Shown here in pieces: positions 54,293-61,147 of a DNA stretch of 64,000 nucleotides (positions are counted from its first letter, which is position 1; the number at the start of each line of letters is the position of its first letter). This DNA comes from Ichthyobacterium seriolicida (GTDB lineage Bacteria; Bacteroidota; Bacteroidia; Flavobacteriales; Ichthyobacteriaceae), in assembly GCF_002369955.1 (NCBI RefSeq), contig NZ_AP014564.1, forward strand, positions 246,893 to 310,892, given 5' to 3'. The position numbers and the translations under genes were made by a program. The notes below the pieces were generated by a model. The model was not told the DNA's origin and made no database searches. It saw only the letters and a list, made by a program, of their open reading frames with translations.

Positions 54293-54631
54293 TTATAAAT
54301 CATCTTTTACTGCTTTTAATTTTAACAGTCTACTTTTAATATTTTCTAACTTTTTTATGAGTTGATAATTAGACAAGCTTACCTCTTTTTCATTTTTCAA
54401 TTTCTCCTTTGCCCCTTCTATAGTATAACCTTTGACCTTTAACAAATCATATATAAAAGCTATATTATCTATATCCTTACTGGTGAAATATCTGTTGCCT
54501 TTTTGATTTCTTTTGGGATTTATCTCTTCGAATTCTTTTTCCCAGAATCTAATCAAAGAGATATTCACATTAAAATAATCGGCCACTTCACTTATAGTGT
54601 AATACAGTTTTTTTGGCAATTTCCCTTTCAT
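54293..54631 (-). CDS. MerR-family transcriptional regulator (short)
   Basis: 112 residues. The N-terminal winged helix-turn-helix KLYYTISEVADYFNVNISLI, RFWEKEFEEINPKRNQKGNR and YFTSKDIDNIAFIYDLLKVK is typical of MerR proteins, followed by GYTIEGAKEKL and a short coiled-coil end. The lack of a sensory domain with cysteines or a larger C-terminus means the inducer cannot be guessed. It starts 5 bases after the end of the metal permease gene, so it could be part of the metal operon, but this small MerR type is also common as a stand-alone gene in Flavobacteriia. Confidence 0.85.
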   Translation of the reverse strand: MKGKLPKKLYYTISEVADYFNVNISLIRFWEKEFEEINPKRNQKGNRYFTSKDIDNIAFIYDLLKVKGYTIEGAKEKLKNEKEVSLSNYQLIKKLENIKSRLLKLKAVKDDL

Positions 54632-54636
54632 ATCTA

Positions 54637-55515
54637 TTATTCCCTGTAGGATAAATATTTATTTATGTCTCTCTTTTTCTTTAGGGAAGAAAATATCAGG
54701 GCTAAGGTAAAAAACAATCCAGATACAACGGCCATGCTAGCTGATATAGAAACATTTAACCATATAGATAATGTATATCCCAATACAGAGGACAAAACCC
54801 CTATAACTGCAGAACCTATAAATAGAGGTTTTATTTTATCCGTAACGAGATATGCTGTCGCTGGAGGTACTACTAAAAATGATATAACTAAGATAGCGCC
54901 CACAGATTCAAAGGAAGTGACAGCCACTACAGAGACTTGTGTCATTAAAAAATAATTCCACAACACAACGGGAACACCTATAGATGAAGCATAATTAGGA
55001 TCAAAAGAGGTTATATACAAGGCCTTAAATCCTATTTTTAACAGAATTAATAATGATAATAAAACCATTATAGTAATCCAAAATGAGCGAGGACCTATAT
55101 CAGTATCCATTATGTAAACAGTATCTAAAGGCACATAACCTATTTCTCCATATAGTACACAATCGGTATCTATGTCGACTTTACCTGTAAAAAGAGAAAT
55201 TAAAATTATCCCTAGAGCAAAGAGAAAAGTATAAGAAAAACCTATGGAGACATCATTTTGTAAATTAATCTTAGTGGTAAAATATTCAACCATAAATACC
55301 AATAATAATCCGAATAAGACTGCCCCTAAAATCATAAAAAAAGCATTGCGCTCTCCAAAAAAAAGAAATGCCAAAACTATTCCTGGAAGTATAGAATGAG
55401 ATATAGCATCTCCTATCATCGCCATTTTTCTCAAGATTAGAAAAACACCTAATAGACTACAATTTATAGCTATGATAGATCCTGTAAGTACAATCCATAT
55501 GTCGTTACTATCCAT
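54637..55515 (-). CDS. Metal ABC transporter permease (TroD-like)
   Basis: 292 residues, about 8 transmembrane helices, of the ABC-3 (Zn/Mn/Fe) permease family. Family marks are LRKMAMIGDAISHSILPGIV (residues about 28-47), FDPNYASSIGVPVVLWNYFL, GAILVISFLVVPPATAYLVT and DKIKPLFIGSAVIGVLSSVL. It is the fourth gene of an operon whose order (binding protein, ATPase, permease, permease) mirrors treponemal Tro systems. The metal cannot be named from sequence alone; Mn, Zn or Fe are possible. It starts 5 bases after the preceding permease. Confidence 0.88.
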   Translation of the reverse strand: MDSNDIWIVLTGSIIAINCSLLGVFLILRKMAMIGDAISHSILPGIVLAFLFFGERNAFFMILGAVLFGLLLVFMVEYFTTKINLQNDVSIGFSYTFLFALGIILISLFTGKVDIDTDCVLYGEIGYVPLDTVYIMDTDIGPRSFWITIMVLLSLLILLKIGFKALYITSFDPNYASSIGVPVVLWNYFLMTQVSVVAVTSFESVGAILVISFLVVPPATAYLVTDKIKPLFIGSAVIGVLSSVLGYTLSIWLNVSISASMAVVSGLFFTLALIFSSLKKKRDINKYLSYRE

Positions 55516-55520
55516 GTATA

Positions 55521-56807
55521 TTATGGTATTATTTTTTCGTGTGGATCCGACTTAGGATTAGATAACTCTCTGTATAGCTCAGCTTCTATCTCAGGGGTTA
55601 TAACGTGCTCTATAGACTCTGCTATAGGATGTAAGTGATCTTTTTTAAGTCTCAACTTCACAGATAAATATAACTCCCACAGTCTATGAATCCTCGTTAC
55701 TCTCTTGCCCTCCTCCAAGCCCATCTTAGAAAGTTTCCAAGTGTTTTGTCCAGATGGAATGACGAATTTTTTTTTACATAACCTCTTCATTCCAATATGT
55801 AATTCCCTTTGTGTAAAATGTCTTTTGGACATTATATGAGTATCTTGAATCAGCCTAAAAAAATCACCTCTATCTTCTCCAAGTTTGTAAAGAGTTTTTA
55901 AGATGTTTTCCAAAAGTATCTTTCTCTGATTATTTCTCTTTAATATCATTTTAGTAATAACCCCATTTTTTGTGGCCAACAACATAAATAAAAATGATAT
56001 GATCGATAGAGATATAACTATCCAAGGGCCAGTAGGCATAGAAGGAGCTACAAAAGAAATGTATACTCCAAATAAACTAGATACACCTCCTATTATTGCG
56101 CTCAAAATGATAATTACATACAACTTATCACTTTGATATCTAGCAGTAGCGCAAGGGACTATCAATATAGAAGATATTAATACGACTCCTACTGTCTGTA
56201 TTCCCGAAGCTATAGCCAATATGGTAAGGGTAGATATTAAACTCTCTATCCACACTACTGGCAGACCTATGGTCTTGGCATATTCCCTATTGAAACAGGT
56301 TATTATAAAAGCCTTGTAAAATACTATTACAAAAATGATGATAATCACAGCCACACTAGCTAATATATATATATCGCTTTCACTCATAGATGCAGCTTTT
56401 CCAAATATGAAATTATTTAACCCAGATTTAGAGAGATGACTCTGATTTTGTATCAAGCTAAACAACAAAATTCCAAAGCTGAAGAATATTATTAATACTG
56501 TAGCTAAAACGGTATCGGGTTTTAATTTGGTGGTGTTCTTTATGAAATTTATGAACATAGTAGAGAGCCATCCAGTTATAATAGCTCCCAACAACAGAAG
56601 ATACATGTTTTTTGAATTGGTAATAAAAAAAGCCAAGCCTATACCTGGAAATACAGAATGAGATATTACATCCCCTATCAATGATTTTTTTTGCAACAGA
56701 GGAAATACCCCTATAACAGATAAGGCGATGCCTAAAATAACACATCCAATGGTGACAAGCCTAATATTATAATCGGAAAAAGAAAAAAAATATAAGAGAG
56801 ATTCCAT
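55521..56807 (-). CDS. Metal ABC permease fused to a DtxR/MntR-like domain
   Basis: 428 residues. The first 290 are an ABC-3 permease (LLQKKSLIGDVISHSVFPGI, FNREYAKTIGLPVVWIESLI, GVVLISSILIVPCATARYQS). Residues about 293-428 are cytoplasmic: a winged helix (ENILKTLYKLGEDRG, SKRHFTQRELHIGMKRLCKK, KFVIPSGQNTWKLSKMGLEE) and the DtxR/MntR metal-binding and dimerisation helices TRIHRLWELYLSVKLRLKKD, then HLHPIAESIEHVITPEIEAE. The E-x-x-E-H ligands and the PHEKIIP end are kept. Chlamydial YtgCR is a comparable fusion whose repressor part is released by cleavage. A domain of this type could sense metal beside the transporter, or regulate the operon if cleaved. Third of four Tro-like genes. Confidence 0.88.
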   Translation of the reverse strand: MESLLYFFSFSDYNIRLVTIGCVILGIALSVIGVFPLLQKKSLIGDVISHSVFPGIGLAFFITNSKNMYLLLLGAIITGWLSTMFINFIKNTTKLKPDTVLATVLIIFFSFGILLFSLIQNQSHLSKSGLNNFIFGKAASMSESDIYILASVAVIIIIFVIVFYKAFIITCFNREYAKTIGLPVVWIESLISTLTILAIASGIQTVGVVLISSILIVPCATARYQSDKLYVIIILSAIIGGVSSLFGVYISFVAPSMPTGPWIVISLSIISFLFMLLATKNGVITKMILKRNNQRKILLENILKTLYKLGEDRGDFFRLIQDTHIMSKRHFTQRELHIGMKRLCKKKFVIPSGQNTWKLSKMGLEEGKRVTRIHRLWELYLSVKLRLKKDHLHPIAESIEHVITPEIEAELYRELSNPKSDPHEKIIP

Positions 56808-56816
56808 ATCGGTCGA

Positions 56817-57605
56817 TTATAATACATCTTTTTCTCTTACAGAGAATTCCCCATCTTTTATTAGATCACCCACCTTAGACAATACATTCAATTTACCTCC
56901 ATAGGCTTCTTGTAAAAATTTAGAGGTGAATACATCTTCCTTTTTACCGCAGACCACAAGGCGAGTATTTAGCATGACTAGCCAATTGAAATACTGATAA
57001 GAAGTCTGTAGATCGTGGTGAACTATAATAACTGTTTTTCCCTTGTTTTTTAAATCTGTTAAAAGATTTAGAATGGCCTCTTCAGTAGCAGCATCTATAC
57101 CTACAAAGGGTTCATCCATAATATAAATATCGGCTTGCTGAGCCAGAGACCTAGCTATAAAAACACGTTGTTGTTGACCTCCAGATAGTTTAGAAATCTG
57201 CCTGTCGGCAAAGGGGAGCATATCTACTTGTTCTAAAACTTCTTTAGCTATGGAATAATCTCGCTCTTTTAGAGGTGTCAATAAATTTTTCTTAGTGTAT
57301 CTGCCCATTAAGACCACATCCATAACACTGGCTGGAAAATCCCAATCTACAGACTCTCTCTGTGGGACATAACTGATTCTACTTCTAACTTTATCGAATG
57401 GTTTGTCGAATAATTTTACATAGCCACTGCTTATGGGCACCAAGCCCATAATGGCTTTCAATAAAGTAGTTTTACCCGAACCATTAGGCCCTATGATACC
57501 TATTATCTCTCCTACGGGCAAGGTGAAATCTATATCCCACAATACAGGCCTCTTTTCATAACTCACAGTTAAACTATGAACCTCTATAGATACATCTTCT
57601 AACAT
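56817..57605 (-). CDS. Metal ABC transporter ATPase (TroB-like)
   Basis: 262 residues. Walker A is IIGPNGSGKTTLLKAIMGLV, Q-loop RISYVPQRESVDWDFPASVM, signature KLSGGQQQRVFIARSLAQQA, Walker B IYIMDEPFVGIDAATEEAIL, and switch His in VIIVHHDLQTSYQYFNWLVM. The RESVDWDFP block after the Q-loop is typical of Zn/Mn uptake ATPases such as TroB and MntB. It powers the two permeases encoded downstream. The start overlaps nothing; the gene begins 1 base after the binding-protein stop codon. Confidence 0.93.
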   Translation of the reverse strand: MLEDVSIEVHSLTVSYEKRPVLWDIDFTLPVGEIIGIIGPNGSGKTTLLKAIMGLVPISSGYVKLFDKPFDKVRSRISYVPQRESVDWDFPASVMDVVLMGRYTKKNLLTPLKERDYSIAKEVLEQVDMLPFADRQISKLSGGQQQRVFIARSLAQQADIYIMDEPFVGIDAATEEAILNLLTDLKNKGKTVIIVHHDLQTSYQYFNWLVMLNTRLVVCGKKEDVFTSKFLQEAYGGKLNVLSKVGDLIKDGEFSVREKDVL

Positions 57606-57606
57606 A

Positions 57607-58515
57607 TTATTTCAGAGCTTTAACTATTTGATCGGTGTTGTGAGTTAACATGCCTATATAGGTAGACTCTGGCGTACCTTCCACACCCATAGCGTCGGAA
57701 AATAGGCTTGCTCCTATCTCTACCTCATAGCCTTTACTCTTACATCCATCTACCACTGCTTTTAGTGATTTTGAAGAAACCGAATCCTCCACAAAGATTG
57801 CCTTTATCCCTCTTTCTATAATAAAATCTACCATATTTACTACGTCTTTTAACCCAAATTCCGAGGCGGTAGATATCCCTTGTAGTCCCTTTGTCTCTAA
57901 TCCATAAGCTATGCCGTAATAAGAAAAGGCATCGTGAGAAGTAATCAAGACTCTTCTATTTTGGGGAATACTAGCTATGCTATTTTTTATATACAGGTGT
58001 AAATCTTCTAATTTTTTTACATAAACGCTAGCGTTTTCTATATAAAAATCTTTGTTTTTTTCATCTAATTCAATTAGTATATCCCTTAGGTAATCAGTTG
58101 CCTTTATCCAGTTTGATACATTATTCCATATATGAGGATCTTCAGCTCCTATAAAATCAGTATCATTTATTAAATCTGATTTGTCTAAGGCTTCTGACAC
58201 AGCTACAATTTTTTTTTTATCAGATAGATTTTCTAAGATTCCTGTCATCTTCCCCTCCAAATGCAATCCGTTGTAAAATATTATATCTGCTTTTATTATC
58301 TTTTTAATATCACCTTGAGTAGGTTTGTATAGATGTGGATCTACTCCTGATTTCATTAATGATTCTACAGGTATTTTATCGATTACTATATTTTTAACTA
58401 TATCTTCAACCATACCAGTGGTACACACTATATAAGATATATCTCCTTTTTTAGATCCATCCACACATGATATAAATAGTATAGATGCCATGAATGATTT
58501 GAGTAATTTTTTCAT
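57607..58515 (-). CDS. Metal-binding lipoprotein of the ABC importer (TroA-like)
   Basis: 302 residues when started at the ATG at 58515 (MKKLLKSFMASILFISC). A longer in-frame start at 58665 gives 50 extra residues but no signal peptide at the N-terminus, and the promoter box at 58543-58536 lies between the two, so the short start is preferred. The lipobox is FISC. Metal-ligand regions of cluster A-I binding proteins are visible: DPHLYKPTQGDIKKI, EDPHIWNNVSNW, EFGLKDVVNMVDFI and FSDAMG. It captures the divalent metal in the periplasm and delivers it to the two permeases encoded downstream. Metal identity unknown. Confidence 0.88.
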   Translation of the reverse strand: MKKLLKSFMASILFISCVDGSKKGDISYIVCTTGMVEDIVKNIVIDKIPVESLMKSGVDPHLYKPTQGDIKKIIKADIIFYNGLHLEGKMTGILENLSDKKKIVAVSEALDKSDLINDTDFIGAEDPHIWNNVSNWIKATDYLRDILIELDEKNKDFYIENASVYVKKLEDLHLYIKNSIASIPQNRRVLITSHDAFSYYGIAYGLETKGLQGISTASEFGLKDVVNMVDFIIERGIKAIFVEDSVSSKSLKAVVDGCKSKGYEVEIGASLFSDAMGVEGTPESTYIGMLTHNTDQIVKALK

Positions 58516-58535
58516 AGGAGATATTAAAATGCAGC

Positions 58536-58543
58536 CAAATATA
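58536..58543 (-). promoter_or_regulatory. TAnnTTTG promoter of the metal ABC operon
   Basis: The minus strand reads TATATTTG, 21 to 28 bases above the ATG at 58515. A TTG lies 25 bases further up, a little beyond the ideal spacing. It helps to decide the start of the binding protein. I see no obvious repressor palindrome next to it. Confidence 0.5.
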
Positions 58544-58698
58544 ACCATTAAATCAAGATATCTAAATTCAATGCTCCCCTGCCCTTTTATTCGCCTTTTA
58601 AAATCATATCTATCCTGGCTATCGATAGAACGATTATTAGTATTTAACAAATGAGGCTTTTGCAAATACTCATAAGTGTTTGAATCTCATGATAGAAT

Positions 58699-59965: not shown

Positions 59966-61147
59966 ATGTACCTAAATAGAACAACATTATATATAATGTT
60001 TTTGGTTTCAACAACTGTGTATTCACAAAGAGACAATAGAATAACAGAAAGTCAAAAAATAATACCAGGAGCAAATAGAACAAATTTATATCTAAATCTT
60101 CTAAGTGACAAGAATGTAGCTGTAGTAACTAATCACACTGGTATGATAGAAAATACTCATATAGTGGATTCTCTTTTATCTCTTGGGATTAACATAACTA
60201 AAATATTCTCTCCTGAACATGGATTCCGAGGAGATCACAGTGCAGGGGAAGAAGTAAAAAATAAAACGGAATCTAAAAGTGAACTACTCATAATTTCTCT
60301 TTATGGTAAGAGTAAAAAATTAGATCCAAATGATATAAGGGATATAGATGTAGTGCTATTTGACATACAAGATGTAGGGGTGCGTTTTTTTACATATATA
60401 TCTACTCTTAGCTATGTTATAGATGCTTGTGCTAAAGCTAATAAACTATTGATAGTTTTAGATAGGCCTAATCCTAATATCCATTATATAGATGGGCCTA
60501 TATTGCAAAAAGACTGTGAATCATTTGTCGGAATGCATCCCATACCTGTAGTCTATGGAATGACAATAGGAGAGTACGCCAATATGGTAAATGGTGAAAA
60601 CTGGATGAATAATGAACAAAAATGTGCTATAAGAGTCATAGCCTGTGATAATTACAGTCGGAATAAAGAATATAGTTTGCCCATAAAGCCATCTCCTAAT
60701 CTGCCTAATGATAAATCAGTGAATTTATATCCCAGTTTGGCACTTTTTGAAGGGACAAGTGTAAGTGTTGGGAGAGGAACAGATATGCCATTTCAGATGT
60801 TTGGGTCTCCTTTTTTTAAAACAAGTGAAAACTATTTTATTCCTAAAACAGTATTGGGAGCCAAAAAACCTAAACACGAAGGGCTCAAATGTTTTAAAGG
60901 AACTTTTAATTACGATAAAAAATTAAACTGTTTGAATTTAGATTGGATCATATGGGCTTATAACAACACTTTAATTGAAAGAGATAATTTTTTCACAAAT
61001 TATTTTAGGCTTTTAATCGGCACTGACAAAACAGTACAACAGATAAAAAAAGGGATGAGTCAAGATGAGATAAAAGCTACTTGGAAAAACGGAATAGAAC
61101 AATTTAAAGAGATAAGAAAGAAGTACTTATTGTATGATTACAAATAA
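59966..61147 (+). CDS. NamZ-type exo-beta-N-acetylmuramidase (DUF1343)
   Basis: 393 residues with a signal peptide (NRTTLYIMFLVSTTVYSQ). The DUF1343 signatures are clear: NVAVVTNHTGMIENTHIVDS, KIFSPEHGFRGDHSAGEEVK, LFDIQDVGVRFFTYISTLSY, VLDRPNPNIHYIDGPILQKD, MHPIPVVYGMTIGEYANMVN, NLPNDKSVNLYPSLALFEGT, and SVGRGTDMPFQMFGSPFF. NamZ enzymes cut terminal MurNAc from peptidoglycan fragments, so a cell-wall recycling role in the periplasm or at the surface is likely. A further ATG at 59996 would leave too short a signal peptide. The gene is divergent from the LolC/E gene. Confidence 0.9.
   Translation: MYLNRTTLYIMFLVSTTVYSQRDNRITESQKIIPGANRTNLYLNLLSDKNVAVVTNHTGMIENTHIVDSLLSLGINITKIFSPEHGFRGDHSAGEEVKNKTESKSELLIISLYGKSKKLDPNDIRDIDVVLFDIQDVGVRFFTYISTLSYVIDACAKANKLLIVLDRPNPNIHYIDGPILQKDCESFVGMHPIPVVYGMTIGEYANMVNGENWMNNEQKCAIRVIACDNYSRNKEYSLPIKPSPNLPNDKSVNLYPSLALFEGTSVSVGRGTDMPFQMFGSPFFKTSENYFIPKTVLGAKKPKHEGLKCFKGTFNYDKKLNCLNLDWIIWAYNNTLIERDNFFTNYFRLLIGTDKTVQQIKKGMSQDEIKATWKNGIEQFKEIRKKYLLYDYK

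Follow-up and report, generated by a model that had tools for sequence, protein, structure and literature searches.

Why should the permease of a metal importer end in what looks like a metal-dependent repressor? The question is raised by a gene in a 64,000-nucleotide stretch (hereafter the window) of the Ichthyobacterium seriolicida genome (1.92 Mb, one contig), which a sequence-only reading had described as a metal-uptake permease running without a stop into a DtxR/MntR-like winged helix and metal-binding core. ORF reading placed all three parts in a single unbroken frame of 428 residues, and Pfam and AlphaFold2 bore out this composition. The gene belongs to a minus-strand operon encoding a lipoprotein, an ATPase, the fusion and a second permease, after which comes a MerR-type gene, with gaps of a few bases between all of them (Table 1). 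Residues 14-276 matched ABC-3 (Pfam, 8e-59) and the permease part aligned with PsaBC (7kyp/7kyo) at TM-scores of 0.86-0.91 by target length (Foldseek), which, with an SBP and an ATPase in the operon, identifies it as an ABC-3 (TroC/ZnuB) metal permease. In permease fold and operon content it resembles the PsaBC, TroBCD and ZnuBC importers (PDB 7kyp), whose permeases, however, stop after the last membrane helix, whereas the fusion adds 146 residues.

Table 1. Position of the fusion gene, its parts and its neighbours in the window.
Feature	Position	Strand	Basis or remark
MerR-type regulator gene	54293..54631	(-)	few bases after second permease
Second ABC-3 permease (TroD-like), unfused	54637..55515	(-)	Pfam 2e-48
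Permease–DtxR-like fusion gene	55521..56807	(-)	428 codons + stop; full-length homologues
Metal-binding and dimerisation core, residues 361-428	55524..55727	(-)	PF02742; conservation in 84 proteins
Winged-helix part (residues 297-360), with its recognition helix (333-345) at 55773-55811	55728..55919	(-)	predicted fold
Linker and DtxR helix 1 as one continuous helix (283-313), with invariant N301 and K304	55869..55961	(-)	AlphaFold2 model; spacing
ABC-3 (TroC/ZnuB/PsaC-type) permease part, residues 1-282	55962..56807	(-)	Pfam and Foldseek
ATPase subunit (TroB/MntA-like)	56817..57605	(-)	Pfam ABC_tran 8e-31; best NCBIfam match, manganese/iron ABC ATPase
Metal-binding lipoprotein (ZnuA/TroA-like), operon's first gene	57607..58515	(-)	Pfam ZnuA 4e-76
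Upstream region	58516..58698	(-)	-7-like TATATTTG at 58536-58543; without relatives' MntR box

Evaluating the C-terminal domain, we found that residues 362-428 matched Fe_dep_repr_C (PF02742, the DtxR metal-binding and dimerisation domain; Pfam, 2e-17). An AlphaFold2 model of the whole fusion, built with 54 homologues, placed after the all-helical permease a five-residue turn, a helix spanning 283-313, helices 322-328 and 333-345, a two-strand wing, and then helices 361-383, 389-402 and 405-414. Modelled by itself, the C-terminal domain reached a mean pLDDT of 92 and, in Foldseek, best matched promoter DNA-bound DR2539 (8pw0; TM-score 0.84 by target length), with SloR, IdeR and DtxR also matching over ~130 residues, such that both the winged helix and the core of the DtxR/MntR family are present in the predicted fold. 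This domain has the AESIEH motif (396-401) and the HEKIIP ending that the sequence-only reading had described, and the core offers putative metal ligands H374, E378, H393, E397, E400, H401, D421 and H423, which appear to make up a set of the H77, E99, E102, H103 type with ancillary His/Glu; H391 is a fusion-specific addition to it. In fold and ligand set the domain is therefore like MntR, DtxR, IdeR and DR2539. It differs from them in being tethered to a permease, in its poorly conserved recognition helix and wing, in having no FeoA/SH3 tail, and in extra residues that are invariant in the fusions (H391, P405, E408 and R329, with R369 in 83/84). A DtxR-type DNA-binding sequence is likewise missing, as the PF01325 profile (DtxR DNA-binding) found no match in the fusion itself (Pfam), and the winged-helix region 297-360 is basic, with a net charge of +7. 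A Pfam profile search of the whole genome matched PF02742 once, in the fusion, and PF01325 nowhere, even at E <= 1; the fusion is thus the sole DtxR-family protein of this genome, and the earlier remark that the operon has no separate DtxR/MntR gene extends to the genome as a whole.

This layout, an ABC-3 permease and then a DtxR-like domain in one frame within a four-gene metal ABC operon, is that of YtgCR (CT069) of Chlamydia trachomatis, and at the level of layout the resemblance drawn by the sequence-only reading holds. The combination is already known from Chlamydia and visible from Pfam models. There, the repressor YtgR is reportedly cleaved free and binds DNA, and the fusion is like YtgR as reported in being, in the window genome, the organism's DtxR-type protein (PMC5599777, PMC7755916). 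Two meanings had been offered for the locus, a cleaved autoregulator of the operon and a cytoplasmic metal sensor of transport. On balance, and with some reserve, we favour the second, in which the fusion would be a TroC-type Mn/Fe/Zn importer permease with an MntR-derived metal sensor acting on transport (trans-inhibition). The competing model holds that the C-terminal domain, cleaved or active while tethered, represses its own operon when metal-bound; the YtgCR-like domain order, with cleavage and DNA binding reported there (PMC5599777, PMC7755916), the complete DtxR fold found by structure matching, and its position as the genome's sole DtxR-family protein all speak for it, and the comparisons with relatives given below lead us to consider it rather unlikely.

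To place the fusion among its relatives, we scanned genome contigs, which returned 320 stretches, and the best 80 of the 320 were all full-length Bacteroidota-type fusions (41-48% identical), so that the gene is encoded full length on at least 80 Bacteroidota contigs. The design is not peculiar to this lineage and is widespread in Bacteroidota, and a merger by frameshift or assembly was rejected on the strength of these relatives. A sequencing or assembly error joining two genes, or a decaying remnant, might have been suspected in a small genome that is missing its stand-alone MntR and whose fused domain forms the longest end branch within the fusion group in our tree, yet given at least 80 full-length fusions that are independent of one another, and with all 23 C-terminal positions and all 44 permease positions that are invariant (84-protein comparison) retained in the window protein, we regard this as highly improbable. 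Between them, the relatives and the predicted fold with its ligands settle, for the observation, both doubts that had been raised about it, namely a frameshift and a domain lacking winged helix and metal ligands. No relatives of the fusion were found on viral contigs.

A survey of 296 complete Bacteroidota genomes revealed the full fusion, aligned as far as residue 428, in 20 and, in a further 22, a relative whose match stops between residues 309 and 373. We read 18 such shorter proteins (17 from the 296-genome list plus G003; L201-L210, L212-L218 and L148), all of which are TroC-type permeases that continue into a C-terminal winged helix and then end within ~10-40 residues; the metal core was found in none of the 18, and the one C-terminal domain tested received no Pfam name. 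Their winged helix nonetheless has its own conserved motif, [HY][PA]H, in 18/18, and its persistence on a permease without the core means that it is retained even where DtxR-type metal-dependent repression is impossible. That core-less permeases with a winged helix are widespread across the phylum, and that in at least one relative (G020) the permease of an operon of this sort is unfused, would also fit a structural or assembly appendage, serving for example in ATPase docking or in dimerising two transporters, with a metal site that merely stabilises the domain. We think this improbable, as the whole DtxR ligand set, ancillary-type and primary-type, is invariant or nearly so in the fusion group together with N301/K304, and the N301/K304 pattern is likewise missing from the proteins that lack the core; this joint disappearance suggests that N301/K304 and the core form a switch that the fusions have kept.

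Most fusions have company. Within the best 80 of the 320, a second, stand-alone DtxR-family gene lay within 5 kb in 68 loci, and in 67 of those 68 it was upstream on the same strand, as the operon's first gene. Four of the 12 loci without such a neighbour have a curtailed flank, and for 7 of the 8 others the genome carries a stand-alone DtxR gene elsewhere. A separate DtxR regulator, recognised by at least one further PF02742 match, is present in 17 of the 20 complete fusion genomes, yet there is none in the window genome, which at 1.9 Mb forms with G237 (2.4 Mb) and G252 (2.3 Mb) the fusion-only group; these three are the smallest genomes among the 20. In G237 (L188) and G252 (L189) the metal ABC genes are scattered around the genome, and the fusion stands alone beside genes that we read as encoding a putative acyltransferase and a lon-like protease. 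Both these genomes have a DUF1343/NamZ-like gene near the fusion, as does the window, where it lies at 59966-61147 (+), near the operon.

In the relatives (L004-L083) a dyad, TTTTTAGA-N4-TCTAAAAA, recurs ahead of mntR or SBP genes and is a candidate Bacteroidota MntR operator. At <= 4 mismatches this box precedes 53 of 67 operons, about ten times the ~5 expected by shuffling, and in 7 of the 8 loci without a neighbouring mntR, which were excluded from building the box matrix, it precedes the lipoprotein gene with scores of 14-26. From its position and co-occurrence we infer that MntR is the protein that binds it. No MntR box was found upstream of the window operon (best score 3.0), nor close to any metal-ABC gene in G237 and G252, such that a missing stand-alone MntR coincides with a missing box in all 3 fusion-only complete genomes. 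This joint loss would be hard to explain had the fused domain read that box, and autorepression is opposed both by the MntR and conserved box that fusion-bearing relatives also possess and by the box being gone wherever the fusion alone remains. One metagenome-assembled genome, G327 (L012/L193), counts against the sensor reading, as it holds the fusion and an MntR box while a second DtxR was not found in it; it is either incomplete or an example of the fused copy reading the box.

The upstream region of the window operon itself also argues against autorepression, since it contained no dyad beyond chance (148 of 200 shuffles did equally well). The sequence-only reading had proposed a promoter here as a candidate target of the fused domain. 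TATATTTG at 58543-58536 (-) fits the Bacteroidota -7 consensus, TAnnTTTG. As an operator it was rejected, being a promoter-like single 8-mer in an AT-rich stretch. A possible vestigial MntR box at 58568-58549 (AATTTAGATATCTTGATTTA) had 7 mismatches, which is chance level, and a search for boxes elsewhere in the genome was uninformative, with ~94 sites at <= 1 mismatch in 1.9 Mb of AT-rich DNA.

Because 68 loci carry both kinds of DtxR domain, we could compare their conservation, taken as mean pairwise identity, between fused and stand-alone copies. The recognition helix differed most plainly (0.36 fused versus 0.73 stand-alone), and the helix before it (0.29 versus 0.59) and the wing (0.32 versus 0.53) followed suit, whereas the metal core (0.65 versus 0.73) and hinge helix (0.70 versus 0.72) did not; since both copies come from the same genomes, the contrast is not a sampling effect. 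Consistent with this, PF01325 was matched by both stand-alone MntRs scanned and by none of the three fusions scanned. The stand-alone recognition helix reads x-A-S-V-T-D-M-L-K-K-L, and its nearly invariant positions, variable in the fusion, match by hand alignment the DNA-contacting residues Pro39, Thr40 and Gln43 of IdeR (PMC8464063). A recognition helix and wing less conserved than MntR's thus weigh against an autoregulator. The low conservation of the helix is no proof of lost DNA binding, because IdeR reads DNA largely indirectly, partly by shape, and tolerates lost base contacts (PMC8464063). That indirect readout, together with the intact winged-helix fold and the basic domain, counts against the sensor reading, as does, by analogy, the same-layout chlamydial YtgR that is reportedly released and DNA-binding (PMC5599777, PMC7755916), and it is for these reasons that we leave the repressor model some probability.

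The metal site tells a different story, with the putative ligands listed above, apart from the fusion-specific H391, common to fused and stand-alone kinds (E397 is replaced by D in 12/84 fusions). Both kinds also have Asn where MntR has Asp8 and Lys where it has Glu11, the fusion resembling Bacteroidota stand-alone MntRs in the Asn (MntR Asp8 / DtxR Met10) and DR2539 in the Lys that replaces Glu11 (PMC3327659). We considered whether N301/K304 might betray a dead metal site and rejected this, because the stand-alone MntRs of the same genomes carry those residues too and because DR2539 functions as a Mn/Fe repressor although Lys takes the place of Glu11 in it (PMC3327659). In the tree a very long branch leads to a single cluster of fused domains, in keeping with one ancient origin. 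With the metal residues kept and recognition-helix conservation lost, the fused domain probably throttles the pump rather than, or besides, the pump's genes.

How such throttling could work is suggested by the linker, in which all proteins compared (84/84) share a P261-to-N301 spacing of 41 residues and the predicted connecting helix, starting just past the final membrane helix, takes in DtxR helix 1. A linker of fixed length that is helical in the model, one helix without a flexible stretch, argues against proteolytic release of a repressor, and here the Bacteroidota fusion is unlike YtgCR, for which cleavage is reported; it also differs from YtgCR as published in that a stand-alone MntR and an MntR box usually accompany it. 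Of the two meanings first offered, the cleaved autoregulator is thus left unsupported and the sensor of transport is favoured, because of the MntR and operator in relatives, the lost helix and wing conservation, the invariant linker, and the operator missing exactly where MntR is missing. In this sensor, plentiful cytoplasmic metal would bind the core, and the metal-loaded core would lock against helix 1 via N301/K304, as in classical DtxR activation. Because helix 1 doubles as the connecting helix, its movement could be relayed to the permease or its ATPase and so slow import (trans-inhibition). In most relatives the fused sensor would form a fast second layer beneath MntR repression, and it is probably all that the reduced window genome retains of DtxR-type control.

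The proposed logic, in which import slows once substrate in the cytoplasm has bound to an appended domain, is that of MetNI and ModBC, whose trans-inhibition domains sit on the ATPase subunit and have unrelated folds, unlike the permease-borne and repressor-derived domain described here. Trans-inhibition domains are known on ATPase subunits and none is known on a permease, and this counts against the sensor reading. Extending that reading to the phylum, a duplicated MntR-type repressor may have become fused to the permease, lost conserved DNA reading and turned into an allosteric metal gauge. Feedback would then act at two levels, with MntR controlling the genes and the fused copy the pump, and reduced genomes would have dropped the transcriptional level and kept the pump-level sensor; we find this broader scenario evenly poised between right and wrong. 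Our literature search found no study of a permease–DtxR fusion in Bacteroidota, and what it did find concerned Chlamydia only, where the fusion is treated only as a repressor source. New here are the evidence, from sequence comparison, of a fused domain that, next to a stand-alone MntR, would act as a second and diverged sensor, and the observations that forms without the core are widespread and that small genomes retain the fused form only. The comparison suggests another job for the fused domain, metal sensing on the pump itself, and if true this would be a new kind of ABC importer feedback, its sensor derived from a transcription factor. It would also bear on Chlamydia, since metal sensing in the tethered state may have come first, with DNA binding retained or regained there. 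As MntR and the fused copy adjoin in many culturable Bacteroidota, the two roles should be genetically separable.

A further DtxR-like protein linked to a transporter also occurs in Bacteroidota (L192:2280-3299 (+), L190:1295-2209 (-) and L191:1437-2420 (-)), in which a FeoA domain comes after the winged helix and metal core, both DtxR-like; PF01325 was unmatched in the two of these tested, and the protein may be a parallel repressor-turned-transporter-sensor. The copy in L192 has an N-terminal membrane helix, and the genes adjoin one for a FeoB-like G-protein, with those of L192 and L191 also adjoining a stand-alone mntR.
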